Shown here piece after piece: positions 69 to 61,120 of a DNA stretch of 64,000 nucleotides. Origin of the DNA: a virus; IMG/VR virus record IMGVR_UViG_3300009419_000010, positions 1 through 64,000 of that record. One strand, given 5' to 3'. Every line of letters starts with the position of its first letter. Position 1 is the first letter of the stretch. A program made the position numbers and the translations under genes. A model generated the notes under the pieces. It saw only the letters and a program-made list of their open reading frames with translations. It made no database searches and was not told the origin of the DNA.

Positions 69-96
69 TTGACATCCCAAAAATCTGTGCTACTGT
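69..96 (+). promoter_or_regulatory. sigma70-like promoter of the methyltransferase gene
   Basis: TTGACA at 69-74, 16 bp spacer, TACTGT at 91-96, then exactly six bases to the ATG at 103. Initiation at the usual distance from the -10 would fall on the start codon, giving a leaderless mRNA. Upstream bases 1-68 hold no supported gene. Confidence 0.6.
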
Positions 97-102
97 CCAA
101 AC

Positions 103-1029
103 ATGAACGTAAATTACATCAAAAATATCGACGCAATGGCTGGATTGAAGGAATTACCTGACAAATCGATTCATTGTTGTCTCACATCACCTCCTTACTA
201 CAACCTTCGTCAATACACAGATGATGAAAATGAATTTGGATTGGCAGAGACACCTGAAGAGTTTGTCAATGGATTGTGTGATTACTACGATGAAGTCTAT
301 CGTGTTCTGCGAGATGATGGTGTTGTTTTTGTGAACTTAGGTGATACCTATCTTGGAAGTGGTAAAGGTGTTTGGAAAAACAAAGAAGAACCTCAAAAAG
401 AGTCATTCAAATTTCGAGAAAAACCCAAAGAGAAATTGGGTGGTTGGAGAAAACCCAAACAATTGGCATTAATTCCTTTTCGTTTTGCCATCGAGATGCA
501 GAATAGAGGATGGATTTTGAGAAATAATATCGTATGGCATAAAGGAAATGCCCTTCCACAGAGCGTCACAGATCGTTTTGTGGTTGATTTTGAATCGGTA
601 TTCATGTTCGTGAAAAGCAAATCATATTATTTCAAACAACAAATTGAACCATTTGCCAATTCTTCTAATCCAATGGAAGTCTACACAGGAGAGGCTACAA
701 AGGATTATGAGACTCAGAAGGCTCAGAACCCAAGTGATACGAAGAGAAGGATTCTGGATGCAATGCGTAAGCGAGGAGGACGTTCCATGAGAGCAGTCTG
801 GAAAATTAATACCAAACCCAACAAGTCAGTCCACACAGCCACATTCCCCGAAGAATTGGTGGAACGTATGTTGAAGAGTGGATGCCCTGAAGGTGGTGTC
901 GTATTGGACTTCTTTATGGGTTCAGGGACAACAGGAGCAGTTGCCAAACAATTAGGCATGAACTATATCGGATTTGATTTAAATTCCGAATATTGTGAAG
1001 TGGCGAGAAAGAGAATTAATTCTTTTTAA
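103..1029 (+). CDS. DNA methyltransferase, beta class (N4-cytosine or N6-adenine type)
   Basis: Site-specific DNA methyltransferase of 308 residues. Catalytic motif IV (TSPPYY, residues about 28-33) precedes the SAM-binding motif I (DFFMGSGTTG, about 270-279), the order that defines class beta enzymes. SPPY is common in N4-cytosine methylases, so base specificity is uncertain. It likely protects phage DNA from restriction or marks it. No restriction partner is adjacent, so it is an orphan enzyme. It has its own sigma70-like promoter abutting the ATG, suggesting early expression. The last 14 bases overlap the end of the convergent gene at 1016-1252. Confidence 0.9.
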   Translation: MNVNYIKNIDAMAGLKELPDKSIHCCLTSPPYYNLRQYTDDENEFGLAETPEEFVNGLCDYYDEVYRVLRDDGVVFVNLGDTYLGSGKGVWKNKEEPQKESFKFREKPKEKLGGWRKPKQLALIPFRFAIEMQNRGWILRNNIVWHKGNALPQSVTDRFVVDFESVFMFVKSKSYYFKQQIEPFANSSNPMEVYTGEATKDYETQKAQNPSDTKRRILDAMRKRGGRSMRAVWKINTKPNKSVHTATFPEELVERMLKSGCPEGGVVLDFFMGSGTTGAVAKQLGMNYIGFDLNSEYCEVARKRINSF

Positions 1030-2536: not shown

Positions 2537-3945
2537 TAACATTTGATTACAAAACAACCAAACGACAGGGGCAATTGATTACGGATTCCGAAACACTCGG
2601 TATGATCCGTAATCATTTTTCTGTTAAGAATGATGGTGCTTCTTTTGCCAAGAAGAAAGGGCATCGTTTTGTGAAAGACCGTAAGTATGCGATTACTCCC
2701 ACTGGTTTGTTTGACTTTGGATTTTATGGGGAGATTCTGAAATATCTAAGAGACAACCAAATTACTGATATCACATTCACTGATGAATTTCGTGATAGGT
2801 TGAAATGTGGTATTGGAAAATTTGAGTTCAAAGATGAACTTAAATACGATGCTCGTTATTATCAGAAAGATTCTATCATAGCTGGTTTGGAGAAAGGTTA
2901 TGGTGTTTTTCTATTAGCAACAGGTGCAGGTAAATCTTTAGCTCAAGCATTACTGATAGAAAATTATATGGAAAACGTATCAAATGATACATTCAAATGT
3001 CTTATCGTAGTTCCAGGTCTTTCTCTTGTAAATCAGTTACAAAAAGATTTCGAGGACTACCAAGTTACATTTTCATATTCAGGTTGGACTGGTGAAAGTC
3101 CCTTACAAGATACTCAAGTTGTTATATGCAATACTCAGAATTTAGGTTCTAAATTTACTGATAATTCTTGGATACTTGATGTGAACTTATTGATAGTCGA
3201 TGAGTGTCATGGTGTCAATAGTGATGCCAATTTGTCAAAAATTATTAATAAAATCAAAACACCAAATAAGTTCGGTTTCACAGGAACATTATCTGATAAA
3301 CCATTGAATCAATGGAAAACGCTCGGTGTGTTCGGACCAGTGATTTATGAGAAGAAATCTAAAGAATTGAGAGATGAGAAATATCTATCAAATGTTAATA
3401 TAAATGTTTTAAAATTGAAACATTCAAAAACATATAAATTAAATTATAAACAAGAATTAGAATACTTATATAAAAATGAAAAACGGAATGATTTTATTTG
3501 TAAATTGGCTGGTAAACTTAATGGCAACGTTCTCATTATGGTTAATCACTTGGAACATGGCGATTCTTTATTATCTGTTTTGTCTAATAAATTGGATAGA
3601 CATATATATTTTGTCAAAGGTGAAGTCGATGTTCAAGAAAGACAAAAAATAATTGACATGATGGAAAAGAATGATAATATCATCTGTATTGCGATGTCAT
3701 CTATCTTTTCCACAGGTATCAACATTAAAAATCTTCCAAATATTATGTTTGTTGGATTGGGTAAGAGCTTTATTCGTGTTGTTCAGTCAATTGGTAGAGG
3801 ACTTCGTTTACATGAAAGTAAAGACAAATTAAGAATATTTGACATTGTGGATAATACCAAATATTCATCTTCCCATGCTGAATACAGACAAGAAATTTAT
3901 GATAAAGAAGATATCCAATGGACGGAAAGAACAATTGAAATATGA
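2533..3945 (+). CDS. uvsW: UvsW-type DNA/RNA helicase
   Basis: Superfamily 2 helicase of 470 residues that in T4 unwinds R-loops and branched recombination intermediates and shuts off origin-dependent replication. An N-terminal substrate-binding domain (1-100) precedes motif I ATGAGKS (129-135), the DECH box (VDECHG), motif III FTGTL and motif VI SIGRGLRL. The ATG at 2533 overlaps the previous stop; an in-frame start 30 bases upstream would lie wholly inside the previous gene. It is followed by gp55 with a four-base overlap. Confidence 0.93.
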   Translation: MITFDYKTTKRQGQLITDSETLGMIRNHFSVKNDGASFAKKKGHRFVKDRKYAITPTGLFDFGFYGEILKYLRDNQITDITFTDEFRDRLKCGIGKFEFKDELKYDARYYQKDSIIAGLEKGYGVFLLATGAGKSLAQALLIENYMENVSNDTFKCLIVVPGLSLVNQLQKDFEDYQVTFSYSGWTGESPLQDTQVVICNTQNLGSKFTDNSWILDVNLLIVDECHGVNSDANLSKIINKIKTPNKFGFTGTLSDKPLNQWKTLGVFGPVIYEKKSKELRDEKYLSNVNINVLKLKHSKTYKLNYKQELEYLYKNEKRNDFICKLAGKLNGNVLIMVNHLEHGDSLLSVLSNKLDRHIYFVKGEVDVQERQKIIDMMEKNDNIICIAMSSIFSTGINIKNLPNIMFVGLGKSFIRVVQSIGRGLRLHESKDKLRIFDIVDNTKYSSSHAEYRQEIYDKEDIQWTERTIEI

Positions 3946-4382
3946 GTAATAAAAATGAGTATTATGTGAACTCCAAAGAGTTCCGACAGCTATTGATGAA
4001 TTATTATCAGTCTGATAATATGACTAATGATTTGGCATCAAACATTGTTAAAATAGCGGAGGGATTATCATATAATCATCGCTTTATTCGATATTCTCGA
4101 AGCTGGAAAGAAGAAATGGTGGGAGATGCGATTGTAAAAATGTATCATGCTTTGGAGAAAAAATTATATAACATTGAATCAGAATTTAACCCATTTTCTT
4201 ATTTCAATCGTATTGCATGGAACGCATTTACCAATCGTATTAATAAAGAAAAGGGACAGCATGAAGGTTTGAATGAATATAAAGAAATGGTTTATATGGA
4301 ATCAATGTCTGGTCCAGATGCGATGGGGCATGTATATGTAAAACCAGTTATGGAAGGAGATGAATATGACGATAATGAATAA
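3942..4382 (+). CDS. 55: late-transcription sigma factor, gp55 type
   Basis: 146 residues. T4 gp55 is a minimal sigma factor that binds host RNA polymerase and recognises the late promoter element TATAAATA. The core block here (WKEEMVGDAIVKMYHAL followed by NPFSYFNRIAWNAFTNRI and NKEK) matches the sigma2-like region of gp55. This gene explains the many TAAATA elements in this window. It lies directly after uvsW with an ATGA overlap and overlaps the next gene by 23 bases. Confidence 0.9.
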   Translation: MSNKNEYYVNSKEFRQLLMNYYQSDNMTNDLASNIVKIAEGLSYNHRFIRYSRSWKEEMVGDAIVKMYHALEKKLYNIESEFNPFSYFNRIAWNAFTNRINKEKGQHEGLNEYKEMVYMESMSGPDAMGHVYVKPVMEGDEYDDNE

Positions 4383-7878: not shown

Positions 7879-8526
7879 ATGAAAAGTGGGAATTATTTCT
7901 TAGACATTGCAAATATTTATTCGAGGATTATAAAAGAATCCCCTGATAATATTACAGTTATTGACAATGAGGGTAAACGTAAATATTTTTCGTATGATGA
8001 CACTCCAAATGCTTACACTGGTCTTATCGGTAGCGATGGTAAATATGCCATATCAAAAGATATTATAGGACATCACAATTTGATTGATGCGATTTTAAAT
8101 AGCGGTGAAGATATTATTCAAAAATTAATAACCAATGCTGATGATATCGGAGATCTGAAAAGTTTAGTCAGAGACAGAATAAAAATAAGAATCTGGAAAA
8201 ATCAAAAAGTTTATAGTATGTGGGATAAATACGATCCTTCATATGAAGATGCTATTAAAGATTCTCTGGAAGCAATAGGCGAAAATTATCAAGATTATAA
8301 ATATGATAATGACTATAAAGATTATGGAAATCTTCCTGATGCTGATACTTTCTTCGTAAAAAGCTTGTCAGATGCTGAAAAAGAAGAGAAAATGAAGGCT
8401 GAAATGGAAAAACGTCAAGCTGAAAGAGCTTTAGCAGACAGAATGGCTGGTATAAAAAGAAAAGCTTCGAGTGATTATGACGCTCCTTATAAAAAACCTT
8501 CTTGGATGAATAGAGAAGGGGATTGA
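7879..8526 (+). CDS. late protein with candidate capsid-targeting N-terminus, 215 aa
   Basis: Unrecognised. Near the N-terminus LDIANIYSRIIKES (residues 8-21) resembles the NIANLYQQMLNE stretch of the gene at 1016-1252 and similar ends of other small late proteins. The middle is acidic (many Asp/Tyr); the C-terminal third (about 150-215) is a charged helix followed by a basic tail ending KKPSWMNREGD. It has its own TAAATA promoter although it directly follows gp46, so it is probably a late virion-associated protein rather than part of the nuclease operon. Confidence 0.75.
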   Translation: MKSGNYFLDIANIYSRIIKESPDNITVIDNEGKRKYFSYDDTPNAYTGLIGSDGKYAISKDIIGHHNLIDAILNSGEDIIQKLITNADDIGDLKSLVRDRIKIRIWKNQKVYSMWDKYDPSYEDAIKDSLEAIGENYQDYKYDNDYKDYGNLPDADTFFVKSLSDAEKEEKMKAEMEKRQAERALADRMAGIKRKASSDYDAPYKKPSWMNREGD

Positions 8527-8549
8527 CATTTCAAATTAATACATAATTA
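8523..8549 (+). promoter_or_regulatory. possible sigma70-like promoter before glycosyltransferase
   Basis: TTGACA at 8523-8528, 15 bp, TAATTA at 8544-8549, then five bases to ATG 8555. The spacer is short, so this is weaker than the sites at 69 or 53750. Confidence 0.4.
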
Positions 8550-8554
8550 ATATT

Positions 8555-9742
8555 ATGTTTAATAGTCAACCATTTGCTTCTCCTTTCCCAACAAGTCCAT
8601 TTCAAGGGCAAAATAAACATCAAGAGGAACCCAAAAAAGGTAATGTTTATTTAAATTTCGTGGCAGATCGTCAAGGATGTGGTCAATGGCGAGTAGGTTG
8701 GCCCGAACATCACATCAATATGAATAATCTTGGTGAGTCTACATCGCTCACTAAGATGATTTTTGATAAAAATTGGTTTCGAGATATTAAAACCGTCAAA
8801 TTACAAAGACAAGCATCTACCCCTCAAAAACAATATTTTGAATTTCTCAAGAGTATTCAAGCAGAAATGGGATTCAAGATTATCTATGAAGTAGATGATG
8901 TTGTATTTCGTGAAGAAATTCCTGATTATAATTCAGGAAAACCATCGTTCGATAATGACGAAATCCGTCAAAATTGTGTTGACATGATGCGAATGGCAGA
9001 TGAAGTCACAGTCACATGTAAGTTCATGCGTGATTTGTTCATTCAAAAAACGGGTCAAGAAAAAATCTCCGTGATTCCAAATTTCCCACCTGAATGGTGG
9101 ATTGGGCATTATTACGATTCTTATAAAATTGCTAAAAATTACGATAAAAATCGTAAAAGACCGAGAATTTTATATTCTGGCTCAGGAGCGCACTTTGATG
9201 TGAAAAAAGGAGGGCAAGACGATTTTTCCCATGTGTTGAAATTTATTATCGATAATAGGTATAAATATCAATTCATTTTCATTGGTGCATTTCCTCCACA
9301 ATTGCATCCATACATTCAAAATGGAGAAATTGAATTTCATCATTGGCAGACATTGACAAATTATCCGAAATTTATTTCCGAACTAAATGTGCAATTAACT
9401 CTCGCACCTTTGATGGATAATAATTTCAATAAATCGAAGTCAGATATCAAATATATTGAGGGTGCTGTGTTAGGTATCCCTTGTATGTGTCAGGATTTGG
9501 TGACTTATTCCGATGTTCCTGATTTTCTGAAATTTAATAATTCAGAGGATTTAGCTGTAAAAGTAGAACAATTGTTGAATTACAAAAATCGTGATAGGTA
9601 TCACAATTTATCTAAAGAATTGAGAAAACTTGGTGAAACAAGATTCCTCGAAAGACCTGAAAACATTGGTGCTTTTCTTGAATCGATGAACACGCCTTGG
9701 GGTGATCAGTCTCGTAGATTTATGAAATACTGGAACGATTAA
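8555..9742 (+). CDS. glycosyltransferase, GT-B fold (GT4-like)
   Basis: 395 residues. A low-complexity N-terminal leader (1-30, Pro/Gln/Ser-rich) precedes a GT-B-like enzyme. IYEVDDVVF (about residue 110) is a typical acidic loop of phage GT4-like enzymes, and the C-terminal donor domain has KSDIKYIEGAVLGIPCM, resembling the E-x7-E/G region. The acceptor is unknown: phage DNA, a virion protein or host glycan are all possible. Early-type promoter and position among replication genes slightly favour a DNA- or host-directed role. Its stop overlaps the convergent gene end at 9739. Confidence 0.8.
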   Translation: MFNSQPFASPFPTSPFQGQNKHQEEPKKGNVYLNFVADRQGCGQWRVGWPEHHINMNNLGESTSLTKMIFDKNWFRDIKTVKLQRQASTPQKQYFEFLKSIQAEMGFKIIYEVDDVVFREEIPDYNSGKPSFDNDEIRQNCVDMMRMADEVTVTCKFMRDLFIQKTGQEKISVIPNFPPEWWIGHYYDSYKIAKNYDKNRKRPRILYSGSGAHFDVKKGGQDDFSHVLKFIIDNRYKYQFIFIGAFPPQLHPYIQNGEIEFHHWQTLTNYPKFISELNVQLTLAPLMDNNFNKSKSDIKYIEGAVLGIPCMCQDLVTYSDVPDFLKFNNSEDLAVKVEQLLNYKNRDRYHNLSKELRKLGETRFLERPENIGAFLESMNTPWGDQSRRFMKYWND

Positions 9743-10053: not shown

Positions 10054-11454
10054 TTATCGACTGACCTCTTCCCAGTCTACGGAGCCATGAACAAGTTCAG
10101 TATTTGTACTCGCAGTAATAGCTAGAGTTAATTCGTAAGGTGTATTTGTAAAGCTATTTCTCTCAAGTTGGAATCTAAATAGAGCCTCTTTAAGAATGTC
10201 TATCGATGTTGATCCTTGAGCGTTAGATGTAAAATAGCCTGAAGCTAATATTCTACCTCCTGATACACTAGTTCCGTCTAACTTGTATTCTACTGAGGAA
10301 TTAACTCCTGCATCAGTCCATGTACCGCCAGAAGTTGTACCTGAAGCAATTACTCGCCAATTATATATACCCGTATCGATCCCCATTACAGACAACGCAG
10401 TTAGAATCACAATACTATCTAGCCTAGTTGGTTTTAAACGTAAAGAAACGACTGGGTAAAAGGTTCCTGCTGTCGCGAGAGCTTTTGGCGCAGTTATTTC
10501 CGTGCCGATTGCTTGCTGTAAACCTCTTAATTCATAACCACCTTCGGAAATAACCGTACTACAAACTTGCTTTAATTTACTTGGACTTGAAGTTGCAGCT
10601 TTATTTTCAATTTCATATCTAAGCGGTAATGATCCTGTTGTAATATATGTCGAATCAATTAGATTGGCATGGTGAAAGTAATGACAAGGAACGAATTGAC
10701 CATTGATAACAAATCCTGTTCTCACGGTACCTAATCCGAGCCATTCGATATCTGCCCATAAAATTTGAGCCTTTGTAATATCGAGAGTAATACCAGATTT
10801 TCCTGATCCGTCTAAGCGATCTACATTCCATTGTGATTGAGGAATACGAGTAGATGAAAGTGAGCCAGATGTAATACTGCGCTCAACCATATATAAAGTA
10901 GTGTCATCCAATTCCAAGTAGATCCCATTATCAGCACCAAAATAACCAACACGTTGTCTCAGATTTGTTTTAGATGGGTTAAAGGTAAATGTATTTAAAA
11001 TTTGTAAGCTCTTACCAGGTTGATATGCAAACACTTTCGTGGTTTCGCGATACACTTTAGAACCGCTTAAAGAATCAACTTTTAACTCCACAAGACCTTG
11101 AGTTTGAATGAATTCCGCAGAAGCAGAGGTTGTCGTGGTTCCACCTGTAAGTGTCGCCCAAAGGCTGTTATCTGTATATCTATGAGACGAGTCGAAAAGA
11201 GTTAATGGACTTGATGTTCTCGTTCTACCGAAAGCATCGCTAGCCATGTTGAAATTACCACTAAAGTTGCTTGTCGTATCATCGATATTCTTCACCAAAA
11301 CAGCATATTTTGGATATTCGACTATTTGAGGGGAACCGAAAGATGGATCTGTCATTGCCGATGTTGCTGGAAATCTAACATCATTTATGATCTCAACAAA
11401 TTTTCCGCTTTCGGTATTTGCAGCGTTTGTCCATACTTTAGTATTAATTGGCAT
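10054..11454 (-). CDS. virion structural protein (tail fibre-like)
   Basis: 466 residues. The segment SDAFGRTRTSSPLTLFDSSH (about residues 72-91) is a motif I recognise from structural/fibre proteins of T4-like marine and other phages; the rest is Thr/Ser-rich beta structure. No catalytic motif. A late promoter stands five bases before the ATG. It is isolated from the main fibre block at 32-36 kb. Exact virion location is unknown. Confidence 0.7.
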   Translation of the reverse strand: MPINTKVWTNAANTESGKFVEIINDVRFPATSAMTDPSFGSPQIVEYPKYAVLVKNIDDTTSNFSGNFNMASDAFGRTRTSSPLTLFDSSHRYTDNSLWATLTGGTTTTSASAEFIQTQGLVELKVDSLSGSKVYRETTKVFAYQPGKSLQILNTFTFNPSKTNLRQRVGYFGADNGIYLELDDTTLYMVERSITSGSLSSTRIPQSQWNVDRLDGSGKSGITLDITKAQILWADIEWLGLGTVRTGFVINGQFVPCHYFHHANLIDSTYITTGSLPLRYEIENKAATSSPSKLKQVCSTVISEGGYELRGLQQAIGTEITAPKALATAGTFYPVVSLRLKPTRLDSIVILTALSVMGIDTGIYNWRVIASGTTSGGTWTDAGVNSSVEYKLDGTSVSGGRILASGYFTSNAQGSTSIDILKEALFRFQLERNSFTNTPYELTLAITASTNTELVHGSVDWEEVSR

Positions 11455-11490: not shown

Positions 11491-11518
11491 TTGACTTTTG
11501 CATTTCATGGTTTATCAT
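11491..11518 (+). promoter_or_regulatory. sigma70-like promoter of DNA polymerase gene
   Basis: TTGACT at 11491-11496, 16 bp, TATCAT at 11513-11518, six bases, ATG 11525. This geometry supports 11525 over the in-frame ATG at 11507, which lies inside the promoter spacer. Confidence 0.6.
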
Positions 11519-11524
11519 TTTTTT

Positions 11525-14050
11525 ATGTATAGGAATTGTATTTACAACAACCGTGAACGCAAGGTTTTCTTGTGGACATGGAATGAAAATGGGGAGCGTG
11601 TGAAAGAAGAACACGACTTCAAGCCATATATTCTACTGGAGGATAAAGCGGGTAAAGAGAAATCTATCTATGGAACTCCTCTTAAAAAGAAAGAATTCGC
11701 TTCTTCGTATGACAGAAATAATTTCGTAAAAGATAGTAATATCAAGCGAATCTATGAAAATCTCCCCCCATACCAACAATTCTTGATTGATAATTATTGG
11801 TCAGTTTGTGAGGATGACAATTTCTCTCAATATCCTTTAAAGGTTGCTTATCTAGACATCGAATGTCCTCATCCTGATAAGTTCCCAGAACCAGAGACAG
11901 CGGAAGCAGTGATAAATCTGATCACTGTATTCGATTCATTTTCTAAAATGTATCATGTTTTCGGTTTGAAGAATTATCACACGACAAGAGATGACGTGAA
12001 ATATTATTTTTGTAAATCAGAAGAAGATTTGCTCAAATCATTCATCAAGTATTTCAGAAAAGAGGAATTTGATGTGATTAGTGGATGGAACATAGCAGGA
12101 TTTGATATCCCCTACCTGATCAACAGAATCACATTTGAATTGGGAGAAGAATGGGCAAAGAAATTGTCGCCAATTGAAAGGATTTATGAAAAGACAAATC
12201 CGAATGGTAAATTTGGAATGCCCACCAAAGAGTATGTGATCGAAGGAATTTCTATTTTGGATTATTATGTGATGTATATGAAATTCAGCTTAGAGAAGCG
12301 AGAATCATACAAGTTGGATAATATCGGAGAAGTTGAATTAGGTATCAACAAAATTCAACACGAAGGTAATCTATGGGAATTGGCTAAAAAAGATTGGTAT
12401 AACTATACTGACTATAACATTCGAGATGTGGAAATTTGTGTTAAATTGGACGAGAAAAAGGGATATATCAATCTTCTTCGATTCCTTGCATACACAGGAT
12501 TATGTGATTTAGAAAATGCCATCAAAACCGTTCCACCAATGAACGGTGCTATCGCTATTCGTGCGCGTATGCGCAACGAGTATATTCCAACTTTCATTCG
12601 ACCTGTTACTGATTATAAAGCACCTGGAGGTTATGTGGCAGAACCAAGAGTGGGATTTGCTGAAAATATCGTGTCATTCGATGCTAACTCTCTGTATCCA
12701 TCAGTCATGATCTCTCTTAATTTATCTCCTGAAACCAAAATTGGTAGAGTTGAGAAGGATGGTGATAAAGTGAAAATCCATCATGTATCAGGAAGACTAT
12801 TTGATATGACTAAAGAGAACTTTAAGAAGTTCATGGATGAAGAAAAGGCAGCTTTAACCAAAGCTGGATTTCTATTTTCTCAAAAGAAACGTGGTCTTGT
12901 TCCTGAGTTCTTGGATAACTTGTATTCCAAACGTAAAGAAATGAAGAATAAGATGTTGGAGTCTCGTAAGAAAGGGGATAAAGAAGGAGAACAGAAATTT
13001 GATAGTATTCAATATGCCTACAAAATTCACCTCAACTCTCTTTATGGGTACATGCTCAATAAATACGCTCCTCTTGGTGATGAAGATATCGGGGCATCTG
13101 TGACATTGACAGGTCAGGCAGTTATTAAGAAAAGTAATGATTTGTTCATGGATTACCTATCACAGTATTTCGACAATAAAGAAGAGATTGAAAAATCTTT
13201 GATATATAATGATACTGATAGCTTCTACACTTCTTTGAAGATATTTGAAAAAATTGGATACGAACTAAAAGATGGAGACAAAGTTTCCGATAAATTTTAT
13301 GGTTTGTGTCAAGATGTTGAAGACTTCGTGAATGAAGGAATCGCGAAATGGGCTAAACAGAATTTGAAAAGTATTGATCCGAGATTCGTGTTCAAGAGAG
13401 AGAGTATCTGTGACAGTGGTATTTTCATTGGTAAAAAATATTACGCTCTTCATAAATTGGATGAGGAGGGTGTCGTGATGAATAAATTCAAATATATTGG
13501 AGTTGATGTTGTGAAAACCACAATGCCTAAAAAGGTCAAACCATATGTCAAGAAAGTCATCGAACACATGATCATGACTCAATCCTTGAAAGAAACCAAT
13601 GATTTGTTCAATGAAGCATACGAAGAATTTAAGAAATTGCCTATCACAGATATTGCAAAGATCTCTGGTATGAACAATTACTCGGAATATTCAGCTAGAT
13701 GTAATGGAATGAATACCGTGAAAGGGATGCCGAGTCATCTAAAAGCCGCTTATTATCATGATCTAATTGTCGGACAGAACGAATGGTCTTCCAAATATGA
13801 TAAATTTAAAACAGGAGATAAAGTTCGTATGGTATATGTCAAGAAACCCAATAAATATAATTTGGACATGATCGGTTTCAAAGGAGATTGGCCCGAAGAA
13901 TTTAATAATATTTTCGTGGTTGATTATGAGAAAATGTTTAGCAAGATATTCCATGCCGCAATCGAGAGATTCTATGAAGCAGTCGGATGGAAACTCAGAA
14001 AACCATCGGAAAATCTTACAGTGGAATTGGAAGATTTGTTTGGATTGTAA
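11525..14050 (+). CDS. 43: DNA polymerase, family B (gp43)
   Basis: 841-residue replicative polymerase. Exonuclease motifs YLDIEC (about 108), NIAGFDIPYL and YNIRDVEIC are followed by polymerase motifs A DANSLYPSV (about 385), B NSLYGYM (about 503) and C YNDTDSF (about 561). T4 gp43 is 898 aa, so this is a compact member. The start at 11525 is chosen because the N-terminal strand then has the length usual for T4-like polymerases and because a promoter ends six bases upstream; 11507 remains possible. It works with gp45, gp44, gp41, the primase and gp32 encoded elsewhere in this window. Confidence 0.96.
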   Translation: MYRNCIYNNRERKVFLWTWNENGERVKEEHDFKPYILLEDKAGKEKSIYGTPLKKKEFASSYDRNNFVKDSNIKRIYENLPPYQQFLIDNYWSVCEDDNFSQYPLKVAYLDIECPHPDKFPEPETAEAVINLITVFDSFSKMYHVFGLKNYHTTRDDVKYYFCKSEEDLLKSFIKYFRKEEFDVISGWNIAGFDIPYLINRITFELGEEWAKKLSPIERIYEKTNPNGKFGMPTKEYVIEGISILDYYVMYMKFSLEKRESYKLDNIGEVELGINKIQHEGNLWELAKKDWYNYTDYNIRDVEICVKLDEKKGYINLLRFLAYTGLCDLENAIKTVPPMNGAIAIRARMRNEYIPTFIRPVTDYKAPGGYVAEPRVGFAENIVSFDANSLYPSVMISLNLSPETKIGRVEKDGDKVKIHHVSGRLFDMTKENFKKFMDEEKAALTKAGFLFSQKKRGLVPEFLDNLYSKRKEMKNKMLESRKKGDKEGEQKFDSIQYAYKIHLNSLYGYMLNKYAPLGDEDIGASVTLTGQAVIKKSNDLFMDYLSQYFDNKEEIEKSLIYNDTDSFYTSLKIFEKIGYELKDGDKVSDKFYGLCQDVEDFVNEGIAKWAKQNLKSIDPRFVFKRESICDSGIFIGKKYYALHKLDEEGVVMNKFKYIGVDVVKTTMPKKVKPYVKKVIEHMIMTQSLKETNDLFNEAYEEFKKLPITDIAKISGMNNYSEYSARCNGMNTVKGMPSHLKAAYYHDLIVGQNEWSSKYDKFKTGDKVRMVYVKKPNKYNLDMIGFKGDWPEEFNNIFVVDYEKMFSKIFHAAIERFYEAVGWKLRKPSENLTVELEDLFGL

Positions 14051-14057
14051 TATCTAT

Positions 14058-14063
14058 TAAATA
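14058..14063 (+). promoter_or_regulatory. late promoter TAAATA, N5 before ATG 14069
   Basis: TTAAATAATAATATG just after the polymerase stop. Confidence 0.75.
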
Positions 14064-14068
14064 ATAAT

Positions 14069-14434
14069 ATGCAATTTACGATTTTATTTGAAAAACTTTT
14101 AAACGAACTTGTTGATACTCTTTTTCCAACCTTCGTGACAAAAAGAGCAGAAGGAGCGAAAAAAATAGAAGAATCCGCAAGGAAAAAAGGTTCTTTTGCT
14201 ATCTTAACTGCTTACCACTTTGCTGGTAAGGTGAAACCATATGCTGATGCTTTGCGAAAAGCTAAGAAAGATGATAAAGAATCCCATCTCAAAGCAAAAT
14301 ATAAAGAAGCTTATGCTAAACTTAAAAATTTGGATTCTCTTTCACAAAAAGAATTTCAAATGATCACAGGAACTCTTGAAGCATATGGTGAAGTCTACAT
14401 TCAAGCGAAACATCCAAAAGATTATTCGAAATAA
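14069..14434 (+). CDS. small late protein, 121 aa
   Basis: Unrecognised, strongly basic and helical (many Lys/Ala, e.g. ALRKAKKDDKE). N-terminal FTILFEKLLNEL fits the shared hydrophobic N-terminal motif of the small late proteins. The late promoter and basic composition suggest a packaged internal head protein, inferred only. Confidence 0.75.
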   Translation: MQFTILFEKLLNELVDTLFPTFVTKRAEGAKKIEESARKKGSFAILTAYHFAGKVKPYADALRKAKKDDKESHLKAKYKEAYAKLKNLDSLSQKEFQMITGTLEAYGEVYIQAKHPKDYSK

Positions 14435-19166: not shown

Positions 19167-19194
19167 TTGACTTCCCGATAAGACATGTTAAGGT
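19167..19194 (+). promoter_or_regulatory. sigma70-like promoter before 19201
   Basis: TTGACT 19167-19172, 16 bp, TAAGGT 19189-19194, six bases, ATG 19201. Same geometry as at 69-103. Confidence 0.5.
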
Positions 19195-19200
19195 AATTTT

Positions 19201-19857
19201 ATGTCAAATTCTAATATTTGTATCTTCACCGCGACCAAAGGCAATAATTGGCACTTTCCCCTAGCTAAAACAGCTTTGGATTTGGATTTGGATCATTTTA
19301 TTCGCCCAAAGTTCAACAATCGCCAAGGACTCGCCAAGGTTTATAATGAATTCCTAGACATAGCCATCAAGGAGAAATTTGATTATGTGATGTTCATCCA
19401 CGATGACGTTCATCTGGAACATGATCCTCGACCAAAGCTGGAGAAACTATTTCAGGAATTCGATATTGTGGGCGTAGCAGGGTGTTCTCAAGCAGAAATC
19501 AAGTCTCCTGCACTATGGCATCTAATGGGGCAAGGACACCTACACGGTGCAGTAGCACACAAGCACGGTGATAAAAAATATATGACAAGCTTTGGTGCTT
19601 ATCCACAAAGAGTGGTGATGATCGATGGCGTTTTCATGGCATTTAATCGGAAAGCGATTGAAACTGTGCGGTTTGATGAGGATTGTCCATCAGGTTTCCA
19701 CTTCTATGATCTTTGTATGCAACAAAAAGCTTTAGAAAAAGGCTTGAAAATTGGTGTGGGGGATGTTATCATTACTCACGAATCTCCAGGGTTACGAGAA
19801 TTTACTGAGGATTGGAAAGCTGGTGAGAAATATTATTTGGAGGTATACGGAAAATAA
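19201..19857 (+). CDS. glycosyltransferase, GT-A fold (StrF-like domain)
   Basis: 218 residues. VMFIHDDVHLEHD (about residues 62-74) provides the metal-binding acidic motif of GT-A enzymes; the order YNEFLDIA, then IHDDV, then VGVAGC, then a late VFMAFNR block matches StrF-type glycosyltransferase domains. The acceptor is unknown. It is the first gene of the gp41-to-gp32 operon, coupled to gp41 by a TAATG overlap, so it is made early with the replication proteins. Confidence 0.75.
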   Translation: MSNSNICIFTATKGNNWHFPLAKTALDLDLDHFIRPKFNNRQGLAKVYNEFLDIAIKEKFDYVMFIHDDVHLEHDPRPKLEKLFQEFDIVGVAGCSQAEIKSPALWHLMGQGHLHGAVAHKHGDKKYMTSFGAYPQRVVMIDGVFMAFNRKAIETVRFDEDCPSGFHFYDLCMQQKALEKGLKIGVGDVIITHESPGLREFTEDWKAGEKYYLEVYGK

Positions 19858-24487: not shown

Positions 24488-24934
24488 ATGAACAACATTC
24501 CCGAAGAAATTGAAGCAATGGCATTCCTGATTGGACAATCCAATCAGATTGATCAAATGATGGTTGACCGACCATCGACACTTATCACATCAGCGCAGAC
24601 TTTGAAAAAAGGTTTGAATGATTACATTCAAACGCAAAGACAACAAGCTCCTCAACCTGTTCAATATCAACAACCCCCTCAACCTCCAGTCGTTAATTTA
24701 CCACCCCAACAATTACCTCAAGTTCCCCAGTATGCACCAATGCCACAAAAAGTGGATGACGGGCAATTGGAATTGAATTTGGAGCCGACTAAAGTTGAGG
24801 AAATTATTATTTTGTTGAAAGAAATCTCTAATAAGTTGACAAAGCAGAATAGTCTGCTAGAAAAGACGTATGCAAATCAATCTAAACAGAAAACCGTTTC
24901 AGAACCTGTTGTTAAGCTTGTCGCAAATAAGTGA
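24488..24934 (+). CDS. hypothetical protein with Pro/Gln-rich linker, 148 aa
   Basis: A helical N-terminus (1-50), a Gln/Pro-rich region (55-95) and a C-terminal helix or coiled coil (105-140). Not recognised. The flexible linker between two helical parts suggests an adaptor. The sliding-clamp gene begins inside its last 65 bases in another frame, so the two may be translationally coupled. Confidence 0.7.
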   Translation: MNNIPEEIEAMAFLIGQSNQIDQMMVDRPSTLITSAQTLKKGLNDYIQTQRQQAPQPVQYQQPPQPPVVNLPPQQLPQVPQYAPMPQKVDDGQLELNLEPTKVEEIIILLKEISNKLTKQNSLLEKTYANQSKQKTVSEPVVKLVANK

Positions 24935-25577
24935 CACATGTGTTCTGGAGATGAAAGATGATGGCATACATGGTATTTCCTCTAGCGAGGATAACTCCAT
25001 GTATGCTCATGCATATCTAAGAGGTGATTTTGAAGAAAAGAATCTAAATCTACCTTCTCTGAAAAAGCTTTCCAAAGCATTAGACATGGTATCATCTGAT
25101 ACCGTGAAGCTAAAGTTGAATGGAAACCATTTGGAGTATAAAGATAAGCAAATCAAATTCAAATACCATCTTCATGAAGAAGGTGTTATCACTAGACCGA
25201 AATTATCTCTGGAAAAGATTCGTAATTTTGAATATAACATCGAATTTGAGTTGGACTTCGATTTCCTTTCCAATATTCTCCAAAAATCTTCCATCACAAA
25301 CACCAAAAAATTATATATTTTCACAGAAGATGGTAATTTGGTGTGGAAAGTAGGAGACGAGACTGTTCCAAACAGCGATACTCTGAGTATTGTAGGGGAT
25401 GAAGTTGAATTCGAACTCAATCCTTTCATTCTAAAGATTGACAATTTGAAATTATTGTCTAAAGTATCGAAGACTGGTAATGTATTCAAAATCAATTCCA
25501 AGTTGGGAGTTGGTTGTATCGTCACGAAGAGTGGTGATTTTGAAATGGAATATATTTTTAGCTCATTGAAGAATTAA
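24870..25577 (+). CDS. 45: sliding clamp, gp45 type
   Basis: 235 residues (T4 gp45 is 228). Processivity factor and, in T4, mobile activator of late transcription. The N-terminus MQINLNRKPFQNLLLSLSQI followed by VLEMKDDGIHGISSSED has the clamp pattern of helix then beta strands with a DNA-facing loop; the C-terminus has GVGCIVTKSGDFEMEYIFS. The ATG at 24870 lies 65 bases inside the upstream gene but is the first that gives the full N-terminal helix. Confidence 0.85.
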   Translation: MQINLNRKPFQNLLLSLSQISDTCVLEMKDDGIHGISSSEDNSMYAHAYLRGDFEEKNLNLPSLKKLSKALDMVSSDTVKLKLNGNHLEYKDKQIKFKYHLHEEGVITRPKLSLEKIRNFEYNIEFELDFDFLSNILQKSSITNTKKLYIFTEDGNLVWKVGDETVPNSDTLSIVGDEVEFELNPFILKIDNLKLLSKVSKTGNVFKINSKLGVGCIVTKSGDFEMEYIFSSLKN

Positions 25578-26944: not shown

Positions 26945-27271
26945 ATGAAGAATAATATTACCACACAAGGTTATTTTGTTAAAAGATTGAGAGATTCTGG
27001 TTTCATCGTGGTCAAATTGTTTGATCAATACGGTCAACACGATCCTCGTAAATGGTCTGTGATGGTAGATCCGAGTAATACATCTGTAATGATCACTTGT
27101 TATCAAAATAAAGAGTTCAAAGGTGATATTTTATTCGAGATTAATGACGGTGGAAATCGTTTTATTAAAAATTTCAACCTTAAAACACAAAGTATGGAGA
27201 TTATTATCACCACTTTGATTGAAAAGGGTGTCGGGCAGATCGAAGAAAATTCAGTCTATAAAAAAGACTAA
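26945..27271 (+). CDS. conserved phage hypothetical protein, 108 aa
   Basis: Contains LRDSGFIVVKLF, DPRKWSVMVDP, SVMITCYQNK and LFEINDGGNRFIKNF in an order I recognise from T4-like phage hypotheticals. Function unknown. It has its own late promoter in a region otherwise made of early genes. Confidence 0.75.
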   Translation: MKNNITTQGYFVKRLRDSGFIVVKLFDQYGQHDPRKWSVMVDPSNTSVMITCYQNKEFKGDILFEINDGGNRFIKNFNLKTQSMEIIITTLIEKGVGQIEENSVYKKD

Positions 27272-27274
27272 ATA
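27269..27274 (+). promoter_or_regulatory. late promoter TAAATA, N5 before ATG 27280
   Basis: CTAAATAATATTATG; its TAA is also the stop codon of the preceding gene. Confidence 0.7.
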
Positions 27275-27279
27275 ATATT

Positions 27280-27591
27280 ATGGAAAAGGGAGAAGAACCC
27301 CCTGATGAGGTATTTGTAGATGAAAAGGTTTTGGAAATCCTTAGAGAATCTTTGAAGCAAAAGCTCAAAAGAGATAGGAAAGGTAGCAAAAGCGTAATTA
27401 AAAATGCCTTAAAAGCTACAATGCAAGAATTTTTAACATGCGGTAAACTTATTGGATATGATTTGGATGGAAATGTTGTGGAAATCTCATTTCATTCCAA
27501 TAAACTGGAAGATAACGCCATGCAGAACCTCTTTATTCAAAAATTTGGAGAGTTTATGGCTGGCAGAATGAATATATCAGGTGATTTTTAA
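27280..27591 (+). CDS. hypothetical protein, 103 aa
   Basis: A basic helical segment near residues 25-45 (LKQKLKRDRKGSKSVIKNAL) and a C-terminal acidic/aromatic part. Not recognised. Begins at a late promoter and runs into two further genes including the primase, so these may be transcribed late as well as early. Confidence 0.7.
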   Translation: MEKGEEPPDEVFVDEKVLEILRESLKQKLKRDRKGSKSVIKNALKATMQEFLTCGKLIGYDLDGNVVEISFHSNKLEDNAMQNLFIQKFGEFMAGRMNISGDF

Positions 27592-29337: not shown

Positions 29338-29691
29338 ATGGCTGCTTCTAATTCTCCTTATTCCACTGCAATCGCTTCTGGTGCTATTGATTTTGATTTC
29401 AAAAATCCTTTAAATCCTTCTGAGCAGATGAGAAAATACAAAACGGACGAGAAATTGGCGCAAGCACCAGACACTCTCCCATATGAATTCGAGGGTCTAC
29501 CTCAATATTTGGCTAATATCCAAGATAGTGCATTTCAAGCGTCTTCTAAATTGGATAATATTATTAAAATGGAAAAATATCAACAAAATGGTGATCTAAT
29601 TAAGCTAAAAGGTAATCTGGAGAAGATCATGATGTATTTGATGAAAAATGGTGACAAGATATTGTCGAATTATACCATTGGCAACGATTAA
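29338..29691 (+). CDS. late protein, 117 aa
   Basis: Unrecognised. The N-terminal part is Ser/Ala/Pro-rich (ASNSPYSTAIASGAIDFDF), the C-terminal half helical. Late promoter upstream. Its stop lies just downstream of a -35-like TTGGCA that belongs to the next gene. Probably a minor virion protein, by promoter type only. Confidence 0.7.
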   Translation: MAASNSPYSTAIASGAIDFDFKNPLNPSEQMRKYKTDEKLAQAPDTLPYEFEGLPQYLANIQDSAFQASSKLDNIIKMEKYQQNGDLIKLKGNLEKIMMYLMKNGDKILSNYTIGND

Positions 29692-29706
29692 AAACTAGAT
29701 TATAGT
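29678..29706 (+). promoter_or_regulatory. sigma70-like promoter before 29713
   Basis: TTGGCA 29678-29683, 17 bp, TATAGT 29701-29706, six bases, ATG 29713. The -35 overlaps the end of the preceding late gene. Confidence 0.55.
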
Positions 29707-29712
29707 TGGGGC

Positions 29713-30195
29713 ATGTTTAAAATCCCCAAAAAATCAAAAATGAAGCGTATTCATGGGAATGTCTCCATGAGCAACTGTTTTTTAATTAATATGAGCAATA
29801 AAAAGAAAAAGAAAAACAAACAGAAGTGGCTAACTGACAAGCTAAAAGGTGATTGGATGGATAAAGATTCGATTATTGAAATTGCTCTTTTCAATTCCTT
29901 AATTCATTATGTTGAAAAAGAAGATGGGCTTAATGACAGTTGTTATGACTTTTCTGAAGAGTTACAAAAGGGACATGTCAGACAGGATACTGTGGATGCC
30001 ATCAAACTCAGACAAAAAGAACTTAACGATGTGTATCTTTATCTGAAAAATGAGCGTCCTGCTTTGAAAAAACAGGTTGATGAGTGGGATGGGACTAATA
30101 TTGATGAATTTGTAGCACTAGAAGATTCGCTTTTGAATAAAGATACAGAATTGATGAATACAATTGTAAAATACAGAGGATACATGTGGACATGA
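29713..30195 (+). CDS. hypothetical protein, 160 aa
   Basis: Unrecognised. The basic N-terminus (KKKKKNKQKW around residues 29-38) precedes an acidic helical body. ATG 29713 is six bases after a strong -10, the same arrangement as other early genes here; ATG 29791 is an alternative start, preceded by an inverted repeat TCATGG/CCATGA (about 29751-29770) and a T-run. Confidence 0.65.
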   Translation: MFKIPKKSKMKRIHGNVSMSNCFLINMSNKKKKKNKQKWLTDKLKGDWMDKDSIIEIALFNSLIHYVEKEDGLNDSCYDFSEELQKGHVRQDTVDAIKLRQKELNDVYLYLKNERPALKKQVDEWDGTNIDEFVALEDSLLNKDTELMNTIVKYRGYMWT

Positions 30196-51980: not shown

Positions 51981-53753
51981 ATGGCAGCTAAAAGAAAAAA
52001 ACAGGAGTATATGGGTAATCCCAATCTCCCAACTGCTGATGCGGTATTTGAATACACACCAGAAATGGTGATGGAGATGGAGAAGTGTAAAGGTTCTCTA
52101 TTATATTTTGCATCTAATTATTTCTATATTATCGATCCCGATGAGGGTAAGAAAGTCATCCCTCTTTTTGATTATCAACAGAGATTATTGAAATCTTTCG
52201 ATGAACATCGATTCAATATTGTGTTATCAAGCCGTCAATCGGGGAAAACGACTGTAGCAACAGCATTAGCATTGCATGAAGCTTGTTTCAAAGATCATAA
52301 AAACATTGTTATTGTTGCTAACAAAGAAGAAACAGCAAAAAACATCTTCAAACGTGTTCGACTTGCATATTTGGAGCTACCAAATTGGTTGAAGCCAGGT
52401 ATTAAAAAATGGGGTGATACTGGTTTGGAATTGGCTAATGGTAGCACTATTGAAATTTCGACCACGACTGGTAATGCTGCACGGGGTAAAACAATTAACT
52501 TGTTGCTATTGGATGAGTTGGCGTTCATTGAACCCGAAAGTATTGTTGAGGACTTCTGGAGATCCGTTTACCCAACTATTTCTCGTGCTAAAACCTCAAG
52601 AATTTTGATCACATCGACTCCGAATGGGGTAGGTAACTTGTTCCATCGGTTATATATTGGTGCAACGAAGAAAGAGAATCGTTTTCATTATGAAAGAATT
52701 GATTGGTGGGAAGTTCCTGGTCGTGATAATGAATGGAAACAAGAACAGATCAAGGATTTGGGTTCTTATGAGTCATTTGCTCAAGAATATGGTAACGAGT
52801 TTAATGATAATTCTCAAACATCGATTGACGAGGAGTTGTTCGACAAATTAAAACAAGAATGTAAAGAACCATTACATATTCTCAAGGATGGTGCATATAA
52901 AATATGGGAAGAATACGACCAAGAAAAAATATATGCTATTGGAGGTGACGTTTCTGAAGGTGTTGGTCTAGATTCATCTGTTTTGGAGATATTCGACATA
53001 ACTAATCCCAAAGAAATTGTTCAAGTCGGAGAATATGTTAATAATAAGATAGGTCCATCTGAATTCACTAATGTCATTGCTGAAATTTGTGGTCATTGGG
53101 GTAATCCATTGTTATTAATTGAGCGAAACAACCAAGGAACAGGTGTTTGTGATCGTTTGGCAAATGAATTCATGTATCAAAATTTGGTATCATGGGGTGC
53201 TAAAGAAGCACACAAAAACAAGCAGAATGGTATGATATCCCACATCAACACCAAATATAAAGCTGTTTTAAACATGCGTTATTTTGTAAATGAATCGAAA
53301 TCTGTCACATTCCGTTCCATTGATAGCTTGAAAGAATTTAAAACGTTTGTGAGATATCCAAATGGATCTTGGAAAGCAAAAGGAGGGGAGCATGACGATA
53401 GAGTTATGGCTACTGTATGGATGCTGATGTCATTATACAATGACATTGCGGAATTGTATTTTGAAATTGAGGAATTGGATGATTGCGACAGACCATTGGT
53501 GATCAAACCAATTGATCAAGGACTATTCAAATACAAATCAGCAACATCTATTTACACCAACGAAGAAGTTGCTAAAATTGAACATTCCAACTTAGCACCA
53601 ATGCTTTTTGGTGGGGAAGGTTCCATGGCAGCTAGTGACATGGCAGATTTAGAAGCACAGGGATGGTTCTTACCTCAAGGTTCCATCAATTCCAATCCTG
53701 ATAGGAATATTTCTTATGAACAATGGGATGCTATGAATAAGTATTTTGGTTGA
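51981..53753 (+). CDS. 17: large terminase subunit gp17
   Basis: 590 residues (T4 gp17 is 610). ATPase: SSRQSGKTT (Walker A, about 81-89), LLLLDELAF (Walker B with catalytic Glu, about 172-180), TSTPNG coupling motif. Nuclease domain: GGDVSEG (about 320), LIERNNQG and GEHDDRVMA supply the acidic residues. Drives headful DNA packaging. Follows the neck-like gene by two bases; no gp16 gene recognised. Confidence 0.96.
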   Translation: MAAKRKKQEYMGNPNLPTADAVFEYTPEMVMEMEKCKGSLLYFASNYFYIIDPDEGKKVIPLFDYQQRLLKSFDEHRFNIVLSSRQSGKTTVATALALHEACFKDHKNIVIVANKEETAKNIFKRVRLAYLELPNWLKPGIKKWGDTGLELANGSTIEISTTTGNAARGKTINLLLLDELAFIEPESIVEDFWRSVYPTISRAKTSRILITSTPNGVGNLFHRLYIGATKKENRFHYERIDWWEVPGRDNEWKQEQIKDLGSYESFAQEYGNEFNDNSQTSIDEELFDKLKQECKEPLHILKDGAYKIWEEYDQEKIYAIGGDVSEGVGLDSSVLEIFDITNPKEIVQVGEYVNNKIGPSEFTNVIAEICGHWGNPLLLIERNNQGTGVCDRLANEFMYQNLVSWGAKEAHKNKQNGMISHINTKYKAVLNMRYFVNESKSVTFRSIDSLKEFKTFVRYPNGSWKAKGGEHDDRVMATVWMLMSLYNDIAELYFEIEELDDCDRPLVIKPIDQGLFKYKSATSIYTNEEVAKIEHSNLAPMLFGGEGSMAASDMADLEAQGWFLPQGSINSNPDRNISYEQWDAMNKYFG

Positions 53754-53777
53754 AATTTAATACCATTATGATATTAT
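53750..53777 (+). promoter_or_regulatory. sigma70-like promoter before 53784
   Basis: TTGAAA 53750-53755, 16 bp, TATTAT 53772-53777, six bases, ATG 53784. Early-type promoter within the late virion cluster. Confidence 0.6.
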
Positions 53778-53783
53778 CATTAT

Positions 53784-54167
53784 ATGAGATATACGCCAGA
53801 TAATATTACAGAATTGAGTGATAACGATTACATGGTCTTCGGATCGAATAAATCGGGAAGGCACGGACTCGGAGCAGCTAAAACAGCACATAAGAAATTT
53901 GGCGCGGAATATGGAGTTGGAGAAGGATTGACTGGTAGATGTTATGCTCTCCCCACTAAAGGTTACAATTTATCTAGAATGTCTTTAGTAGAAATCAAAA
54001 ACCATGTGGATATTTTTCTAAAATTTGCTAAGGATAATCCCGATAAGACATTTCTTGTCACACAGATTGGTTGTGGATTGGCTGGACATAAGCCAAAGGA
54101 TATTGCACCGATGTTCGAAGAACGAACAGCGAACGTGATTATCCCAAAAGAATTTGATGTTACTTGA
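53784..54167 (+). CDS. A1S_2505-type phage non-structural protein, macrodomain-like
   Basis: 127 residues. YMVFGSNKSGRHGLGAAKTA near the N-terminus, CYALPTKGYNLSRM and TQIGCGLAGHKPKDIAPMF match a phage family resembling macro domains, which bind ADP-ribose-like ligands. It has a sigma70-like, leaderless-geometry promoter and stands alone between terminase and tail genes, so its timing probably differs from its neighbours. Possible role in NAD- or ADP-ribose-related host interaction is inferred. Confidence 0.75.
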   Translation: MRYTPDNITELSDNDYMVFGSNKSGRHGLGAAKTAHKKFGAEYGVGEGLTGRCYALPTKGYNLSRMSLVEIKNHVDIFLKFAKDNPDKTFLVTQIGCGLAGHKPKDIAPMFEERTANVIIPKEFDVT

Positions 54168-57670: not shown

Positions 57671-57676
57671 TAAATA
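57671..57676 (+). promoter_or_regulatory. late promoter TAAATA, N5 before ATG 57682
   Basis: CTAAATAATAATATG before the homing endonuclease. Confidence 0.75.
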
Positions 57677-57681
57677 ATAAT

Positions 57682-58452
57682 ATGGCTGGAACTACCATTG
57701 AAAATTTAGGCAAAGCAACAGAATACGATCAATGTCCTGCTATTTATATTTTAAAAAATAATAAAAACGGTAAGGTTTATGTCGGAGAAACTATGAATTT
57801 GAGACAGCGAGTATATTCATATCATAAATCAAATATAGATACCCCTAGACCTATATTGAGAGCTATCAATAAACATGGTTTAGAAAATTTTTCATTCGAA
57901 TATCAATATTATCCTGATATGTCTAAGGACGAATTATTGGATATTGAAGAGAGATTAATAAAAGAACACAATAGTTTAATGAGTGGAAGCGGATACAATG
58001 TTTGTTCAAGAGGGCAAAATAGATATTTAGCAACACAATCTCTTGAAGCTCGTAAAAAAAGGAGTGAAATTTTTAAAGGGAGAGTCATTACAGAAGAATG
58101 GAGAGAAAACATGTCAAAAGCCAAGAGTGGAGAGAACCATCCAATGTATGGTAAAAAAATGTCAGAGGAGACGAGGAAAAAAATGGGCGATTCCAGAAGA
58201 GGTGAGAGAAATGGGAGATATGGGAAGAAAATGTCTGAAGAAGCTAAAAGAAAAATGGTAGAAAATTTACCAAATAAAGTATGTGTATCACAATATACAA
58301 AATCTGGTGAATTTGTTAAATCTTATTTTTCTATAGCTGAAGCTGCGAAACAAACTGGAATAGATAGTCGTCATATAAGTGCGGTGTGTAATAATAAAAA
58401 TAGAAAAACATCTGGTGGTTATATTTGGAAAAAAGACACACTTCATCACTAA
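57682..58452 (+). CDS. GIY-YIG homing endonuclease with NUMOD domains
   Basis: 256 residues. The GIY-YIG domain (about 18-105) has AIYILKNNKNGKVYVGET and the catalytic Arg in LRQRVYSYH and Glu in IEERLIKEHN. Two NUMOD3-like repeats follow (GENHPMYGKKMSEETRKKM, then GERNGRYGKKMSEEAKRKM), then a C-terminal NUMOD1-like helix-turn-helix ending SGGYIWKK. A free-standing homing enzyme inserted between sheath and tube genes; its first codons and promoter resemble those of the tube gene downstream. Confidence 0.92.
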   Translation: MAGTTIENLGKATEYDQCPAIYILKNNKNGKVYVGETMNLRQRVYSYHKSNIDTPRPILRAINKHGLENFSFEYQYYPDMSKDELLDIEERLIKEHNSLMSGSGYNVCSRGQNRYLATQSLEARKKRSEIFKGRVITEEWRENMSKAKSGENHPMYGKKMSEETRKKMGDSRRGERNGRYGKKMSEEAKRKMVENLPNKVCVSQYTKSGEFVKSYFSIAEAAKQTGIDSRHISAVCNNKNRKTSGGYIWKKDTLHH

Positions 58453-60356: not shown

Positions 60357-60383
60357 TTGACAAATGATTTGTCACAGTAAATA
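60357..60383 (+). promoter_or_regulatory. hybrid promoter with palindrome before 60389
   Basis: TTGACA at 60357-60362 and TAAATA at 60378-60383 (15 bp apart), then CGGGC and ATG 60389. Between them TGACAAA (60358-60364) and TTTGTCA (60368-60374) form a 7-bp inverted repeat with a three-base centre. The site could serve both sigma70 and gp55 and may bind a regulator. Confidence 0.5.
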
Positions 60384-60388
60384 CGGGC

Positions 60389-61120
60389 ATGGACAATAAT
60401 GTTAAGAACTTCTTGGACAGTATCCAAGATTTAAAAAATACAAAATTCAAAGTGAATCGTATTACTACTGGTGAAAAAGTTGATTGCGTTCCTTTGTCAT
60501 TCAAACAACAAAAGAATATTATTTCTACCTTCACAGAAGGAACTGTTGGTGTTTTGAAATTCCAAAAGATGTTGAATGATATTATCATTGAAAACACTGG
60601 AAATAATGATTGGTTGGTTGTTGATAAGGTTCCTGTTATTTTAAAATTGAGAAAAGAAAGTCTAGGTGACATCGTTAAAACATCAGAAGGAGAAATTGAT
60701 ATCAGAGACATCAAAATTTTGGATAAAATTGATATTCCACTCCTACATATTGTCGAAGGAGCAGTGACAGTAGAACTGGACACACCTACATTATCTGAAG
60801 AAAATAAAGTCATCAATTATGCAATTGATATTCTTAAAAAAGATGGAGAAAAAGATGTCGGAAAGAATCTGACCAATCTATTCACCTTTGAAATTGTAAA
60901 ATTCGTCAAGACTGTGAAATTTGGCGAAAAATCTTTGAGTTTCTCCGAATTATCTATCAAAGATAGAATTTCAGTAATTGAGAACTTACCACTGTCTATC
61001 AATCAAGATATTGCTAAATTTATTGATAAAATTAAAGAAATTGATAGAACCCAGACCAAAGTGGTTATCGATGGGGAAGAAAAATCATTTGATATTGACA
61101 TAACATTTTTTGATAATTAA
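60389..61120 (+). CDS. 26: baseplate hub protein, gp26 family (T4_baseplate type)
   Basis: 243 residues. FKVNRITTGEKVDCVPLSFKQQ (about 20-41), the family start block in which a beta hairpin leads into PLSFKQQK, followed by LKFQKMLNDII, matches the T4 gp26 family. In T4 gp26 helps assemble the central hub. Late TAAATA five bases before the ATG, with an added -35-like element. Confidence 0.7.
   Translation: MDNNVKNFLDSIQDLKNTKFKVNRITTGEKVDCVPLSFKQQKNIISTFTEGTVGVLKFQKMLNDIIIENTGNNDWLVVDKVPVILKLRKESLGDIVKTSEGEIDIRDIKILDKIDIPLLHIVEGAVTVELDTPTLSEENKVINYAIDILKKDGEKDVGKNLTNLFTFEIVKFVKTVKFGEKSLSFSELSIKDRISVIENLPLSINQDIAKFIDKIKEIDRTQTKVVIDGEEKSFDIDITFFDN

Follow-up and report, generated by a model that had tools for sequence, protein, structure and literature searches.

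Among phages, mRNAs without leaders have to our knowledge been described chiefly for isolated examples, lambda cI being one. TA-led leaderless genes have been described in cellular genomes, most abundantly among Actinobacteria and Deinococcus-Thermus (Zheng et al. 2011, PMC3160421), and a −10 element adjacent to the ORF has been shown experimentally to be a promoter for leaderless mRNA in Deinococcus-Thermus (PMC12340547). Far-T4 phages are uncultured aquatic T4-like phages, some of which have been linked in silico to Bacteroidota (PMC7198788). Our literature search, conducted mostly outside subscription papers, yielded no account of leaderless promoters in a T4-like phage.

The window analyzed here is a stretch of 64,000 bases, corresponding to bases 1–64,000 of a T4-like phage record that is 108,762 bases long. 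T4-like genes in this record include gp43, gp44, gp45, gp46/47 (SbcC/D-like), gp41 (DnaB-like helicase), UvsX, a single-stranded DNA-binding protein, gp17–19 (terminase, sheath, and tube), and gp55. The genome has 35% GC and short intergenic gaps. We compared eight genomes, namely the window's record and seven IMG/VR relatives (G001–G007); three more distant relatives (G008, G009, and G011) were held out from matrix building. Although many close relatives are present in IMG/VR, the polymerase is only ~30% identical to that of the nearest cultured phages. Searches of 84,980 species genomes with the polymerase, and of the same genomes with the CTAGA pattern described below, returned no match. 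The cyanophage marker psbA (PF00124) was absent in all members searched, whereas it was present in S-RIM50; psbA and psbD are common in cyanophages, though not universal. Given the distance to cultured phages, the lack of a database match, and the absence of psbA, no host can be named.

Two observations concern individual genes near or at the polymerase locus. A virion structural protein encoded at 10054–11454 (−) is 63% identical to cyanophage proteins, whereas the polymerase is so distant from cultured phages; based on this sequence comparison, the structural protein gene appears to be a mosaic gene. In addition, the gp43 span is larger in L026 (10001–13549, 3549 bases) and L029 (743–4514, 3772 bases) than in the window (~2523 bases), and the extra ~1.0–1.25 kb suggests a possible inserted intron or intein.

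The original prediction held that sigma70-like promoters in the window end exactly six bases before ATG. Across the eight genomes, the pattern TTGACN-16-TANNNT-6-ATG had 29 matches, compared with one for the reversed control. In a count that did not depend on gene calls, TTGACN-16-TANNNT was followed by ATG at distance 6 in 29 instances, as opposed to ~4 at other distances (maximum 12); with TGn added to the pattern, there were 21 instances at distance 6 and ~2 elsewhere (maximum 11). Promoter-like matches are therefore not equally frequent across distances from the start codon. Similarly, 31 genes from 16 families carry TTGAC exactly at position −34 relative to their called ATG, against a background per position of 1.3 genes on average (1.1 families), with a maximum of 6. 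A secondary TTGAC peak at −37 (13 genes, 9 families) would imply leaders of 2–4 bases for some genes. A position-weight scan for −35/−10 pairs at fixed distance also peaked at 6 across the eight genomes: the sigma70 matrix, which consists of general E. coli hexamer weights and is not derived from these phages, gave 17 matches at distance 6, spread over 16 gene families, compared with 0.7 in dinucleotide shuffles. After removal of CTAGA and late genes, 14 matches in 13 families remained at this distance, and some matches to the matrix lay at distances >6 from ATG. We preferred the simpler TTGAC position count because genome scans with the clustered early matrix were too noisy alone in held-out genomes; in G009, an open frame began exactly at +1 in only 3 of the 25 best sites.

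Genes chosen on TTGAC at −34 alone share further positions: T at −15 (83%), G at −14 (83%), T at −12 (96%), A at −11 (100%), and T at −7 (70%). These genes thus carry TGnTAnnnT followed by six bases to ATG, and the arrangement matches the sigma70 hexamers (TTGACA/TATAAT-like, spacer of 15–19 bases) with a spacer of 16 bases. Based on sequence, we predict that the TTGAC class comprises extended −10 promoters held at a constant distance from the start codon. A pyrimidine at −1, which is a usual feature of transcription start sites, is found in 94% of TTGAC genes, 88% of late genes, and 100% of CTAGA genes, compared with 55% of in-operon starts. The −7 element of Bacteroidota sigma-ABfr is TAnnTTTG (PMC6847099); we rejected this reading, as T at −8, T at −6, and G at −5 occur in 22%, 16%, and 32% of the TTGAC class, respectively.

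All five promoter-like sites listed in the original prediction proved letter-exact in sequence and spacing on direct reading, but they do not form one class. The shared geometry holds for the sites at 103, 11525, and 19201, whereas the site at 29713 fits the CTAGA class and the one at 53784 is doubtful (Table 1). At the last of these, the TTGAAA hexamer contains the terminase stop codon TGA (53751–53753), and of the three orthologues, G001 has not retained the −10. Two sites had also been proposed as near variants with short leaders. The site at 15108 stands as such, with a leader of 1–4 bases; its −35 is partly coding, and its family has 7–10 bases after the −10. We rejected the site at 23523, where TTGACA is part of a coding sequence and is not kept in either G001 or G002. 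The single sites at 53784 and 23523 may be chance matches.

Sites beyond the original list are those at 24870 (gp45) and, with the −35 at −32, at 8555 and 60389. The site at 24870 lies within the preceding gene, so that coding confounds its conservation; it is kept in G001, G003, G004, G006, and G007 and missing in G002 and G005. Upstream of the glycosyltransferase-like gene at 8555, TTGACA is found at about −32 to −34 of ATG in nine distinct upstream sequences.

Table 1. Genes and candidate promoter elements in the window, with the sequence elements or evidence for each.
Feature	Position	Strand	Elements or evidence
Candidate promoter of methyltransferase-led operon	69..105	+	TTGACA-16-TACTGT-6-ATG; −35 69–74, TGn 88–90, −10 91–96, discriminator CCAAAC 97–102, ATG 103–105; predicted +1 at 103; orthologue conservation
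gp55-like late sigma factor	3942..4382	+	phrog_234, E 4.7e-25
Variant site, glycosyltransferase-like gene	8523..8557	+	TTGACA-15-TAATTA-5-ATG; 9 distinct upstreams
Candidate DNA polymerase (gp43-like) promoter	11491..11527	+	TTGACT 11491–11496, 16 bases, TATCAT 11513–11518, 6 bases, ATG 11525
DNA polymerase, gp43-like	11525..14050	+	phrog_262, E 5e-191
Late class example	14058..14071	+	TAAATA-5-ATG
Candidate promoter of operon leading to gp41-like helicase	19167..19203	+	TTGACT 19167–19172, TGT 19186–19188, TAAGGT 19189–19194, ATG 19201; spacers 16 and 6; 11 orthologues
Candidate promoter of gp45-like clamp, same geometry	24836..24872	+	TTGACA 24836–24841, TAGAAA 24858–24863, ATG 24870
Sliding clamp, gp45-like	24870..25577	+	phrog_223, E 6.5e-12
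Late element	27269..27282		TAAATAATAAT directly before ATG
CTAGA-class candidate promoter	29690..29715	+	AAAAACTAGA 29690–29699, TATAGT 29701–29706, ATG 29713; posterior 1.00
Weak candidate at 53784	53750..53786	+	TTGAAA-16-TATTAT-6-ATG; TTGAAA 53750–53755, TATTAT 53772–53777; posterior 0.59
Late element	57671..57684		TAAATAATAAT directly before ATG
Composite TTGACA + TAAATA	60357..60391	+	TTGACA 60357–60362, 15 bases, TAAATA 60378–60383, 5 bases, ATG 60389; kept in G001, G003, G004

Orthologue comparisons showed conservation confined to the promoter-like positions. Among 11 non-redundant orthologues of the 19201 locus, conservation is limited to the −35, TGnTA..T, and the pyrimidine immediately preceding ATG, and neither the spacer nor the flanks are conserved; a four-codon difference at the N-terminus leaves the distance from promoter to ATG unchanged. 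In orthologues of the 103 locus (L261–L277), TTGA(C) and TGnTAnnnT are kept together with their position, and the rest has diverged. In the relatives L020 and L025, the DNA upstream of the polymerase gene is unrelated to that in the window, yet the geometry is the same (TTGACA-16-TATACT-6-ATG in L020; TTGACA-16-TATGAA-6-ATG in L025). Polymerases encoded downstream of such unrelated DNA likewise start with M(S)YRN, which confirms the polymerase start at 11525 that had been chosen on the spacing rule.

We also aligned upstream sequences at ATG and clustered them with an unsupervised mixture model that was given no promoter knowledge. The model recovered three position-locked classes: the late class, with TAAATAATAAT directly before ATG; a class with TTTAAAAACTAGAATACAATnAngAC directly before ATG; and TTGAca...TGtTAAa directly before ATG. 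In each of the three, the elements would put +1 on the A of ATG.

In the late class, TAAATA was found 11 bases before ATG 255 times, compared with ~25 at other distances, and ~206 genes in the eight genomes carry it at exactly −11. With the late matrix, an open frame began exactly at +1 in 16 of 40 sites in held-out G009. The TAAATA element occurs together with a gp55 sigma and a gp45 clamp, as in T4-type late transcription, and the late elements are consistent with gp55-type late promoters that lack leaders; by the general register of T4 late promoters, +1 in this class would fall on the A of ATG. An excess of TTGA is seen at −32 in the late class (14, compared with ~2), which suggests that genes whose composite promoters combine the two elements (TTGACA at −32, TAAATA at −11) may be read both early and late. 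A homing-endonuclease-like gene (phrog_314) at 57682–58452 (+), flanked by the genes for tail sheath and tail tube, has its own late element.

The CTAGA class, which is strongly conserved, was absent from the original list; its member at 29713 had been read as TTGGCA-17-TATAGT-6-ATG, whereas the actual layout is AAAAACTAGA-T-TATAGT, and the element is kept in the G007 orthologue. The class pattern is AAAAACTAGA-n-TAnnAT-6-ATG, with the box directly abutting the −10. Clustering gave a 25-bit motif in ~116–128 genes of the eight genomes, most of them within the region of small genes (G000 77–108 kb), and many further IMG/VR contigs carry it (L085–L164). A minority of CTAGA genes have leaders of 3–50 bases. 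With the CTAGA matrix, an open frame began exactly at +1 in 17 of 25 sites in held-out G009; an open frame exactly at +1 was likewise obtained with both matrices (CTAGA and late) in held-out G008 and G011, but not in control phages. Tandem paralogous small genes with a RELKFRVW... motif are present at G000 81345–83030, outside the window.

Shine-Dalgarno (SD) motifs occur at 2–8% of starts in the clade, no more than in the control interval, and they are also absent at internal operon starts, where the context is A-rich. In control phages, SD cores were found at 56% (T4), 46% (pelagiphage Mosig), 22% (cyanophage P-SSM2), and 16% (RM378) of starts. TAAATA at −11 was found in 0, 6, 2, and 0 genes of these four phages, respectively, compared with 8–41 per genome in the clade. 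Among the 638 genes with an upstream gap of at least 15 bases, 237 have one of the three elements in strict register and 288 do so with looser matching; a substantial proportion of the genes that probably lead operons, though not all, therefore appear to follow the ATG-register rule.

We consider it probable that the TTGAC sites are real pre-replicative sigma70-type promoters giving leaderless mRNAs, in a register common to all promoter classes. They would serve replication and DNA-modification genes, and a sigma70-type holoenzyme would read them through TTGACA, the 16-base spacer, and the extended −10 (TGnTAnnnT). With six bases between the −10 and ATG, the first transcribed base would be the A of the start codon, which would leave the mRNA leaderless; ribosomes would then have to initiate on a 5′-terminal AUG. 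The position at which RNA polymerase begins can vary by one or two bases. Positional statistics, orthologue footprints, the signature of a pyrimidine at −1 with A at +1, and the lack of SD motifs uphold the original claim of a −10 that ends six bases before ATG, with +1 expected on the A. From the observed positions, enrichment, conservation, pyrimidine at −1, lack of SD motifs, and clade specificity, we infer promoter activity, +1 at the A, and use of the host polymerase. That the TTGAC class is "early" is a guess from gene content. Since the late (gp55-type TAAATA) and CTAGA classes share the ATG alignment, leaderless first genes would be common to all classes. A broader proposal, to which we give slightly less than an even chance, is that leaders were lost throughout the lineage, with the first genes of most transcription units transcribed from the A of AUG in three classes and CTAGA read by an undescribed host sigma or phage factor.

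It is unlikely, in our view, that TTGAC is instead the site of a phage-encoded activator, as at T4 middle promoters, where a box near −30 accompanies an extended −10; CTAGA would then be the true early class and the mRNAs would still be leaderless. The TTGAC class does precede replication genes, which are middle genes in T4, and carries TGn, and CTAGA promoters crowd a small-gene region typical of immediate-early genes; however, TTGACA with a 16-base spacer is an ordinary sigma70 −35. The MotA box is centered on TGCTT, whereas the conserved box here is TTGAC. A search for the MotA and AsiA families (PF09158, PF09010) found both in T4 and neither in relatives, and this result gives no support to middle regulation of the T4 type, although another activator may be involved. 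We give still less weight to the possibility that these are real promoters with very short leaders (1–5 bases) instead of none: the sub-peak at −37 and the 15108 family fit such leaders, but the main peak lies exactly at −34 (distance 6), and a pyrimidine at −1 is paired with A at +1. Very improbably, the signal is an AT-rich start context for translation without SD, as in Bacteroidota, that merely resembles a −10; SD absence and the A-rich context at in-operon starts agree with this idea, but it accounts for neither the TTGAC at −34 nor the TG at −15/−14, and in-operon starts lack both. Least credible is chance in a compact, AT-rich genome whose short gaps force promoters near ATG, given the difference from shuffled sequences and the absence of the pattern in T4 and Mosig, which are equally compact and AT-rich.

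If leaderless mRNAs are indeed used throughout this lineage, a T4 programme would be able to run without SD leaders, and host ribosomes would be predicted to start well on a 5′-terminal AUG. With first genes transcribed from the A of AUG, promoter and start codon would form one fused module, and the register would allow both to be annotated by one strict criterion in phages that have not been cultured.

Among known phages, the lineage resembles the Far-T4 phages in being uncultured, aquatic, and T4-like. It differs from the Rhodothermus phage RM378, which lacks the ATG-aligned placement and has core proteins that are only distantly similar. Like T4 (Straboviridae), it has a gp55-like sigma, a gp45 clamp, the TAAATA late element, and sigma70-like promoters at replication genes; in T4, however, promoters lie upstream of SD-containing leaders (56% SD), no late elements are found at −11, and MotA and AsiA are present. 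As in TA-led leaderless genes (PMC3160421), where TANNNT lies ~12 bases before the start, SD is lacking, and +1 is predicted at or next to the start, the phage genes have TANNNT ~10–12 bases before the start beyond chance and no SD; the differences are that the carrier is a T4-like phage, that a −35 and an extended −10 are present, and that two other promoter classes share the register. As in the Deinococcus-Thermus motif (PMC12340547), the −10 stands at a constant short distance upstream of the ORF; there the −10 alone suffices and a −35 only strengthens it, whereas in these low-GC viruses TTGACA-16 is conserved.
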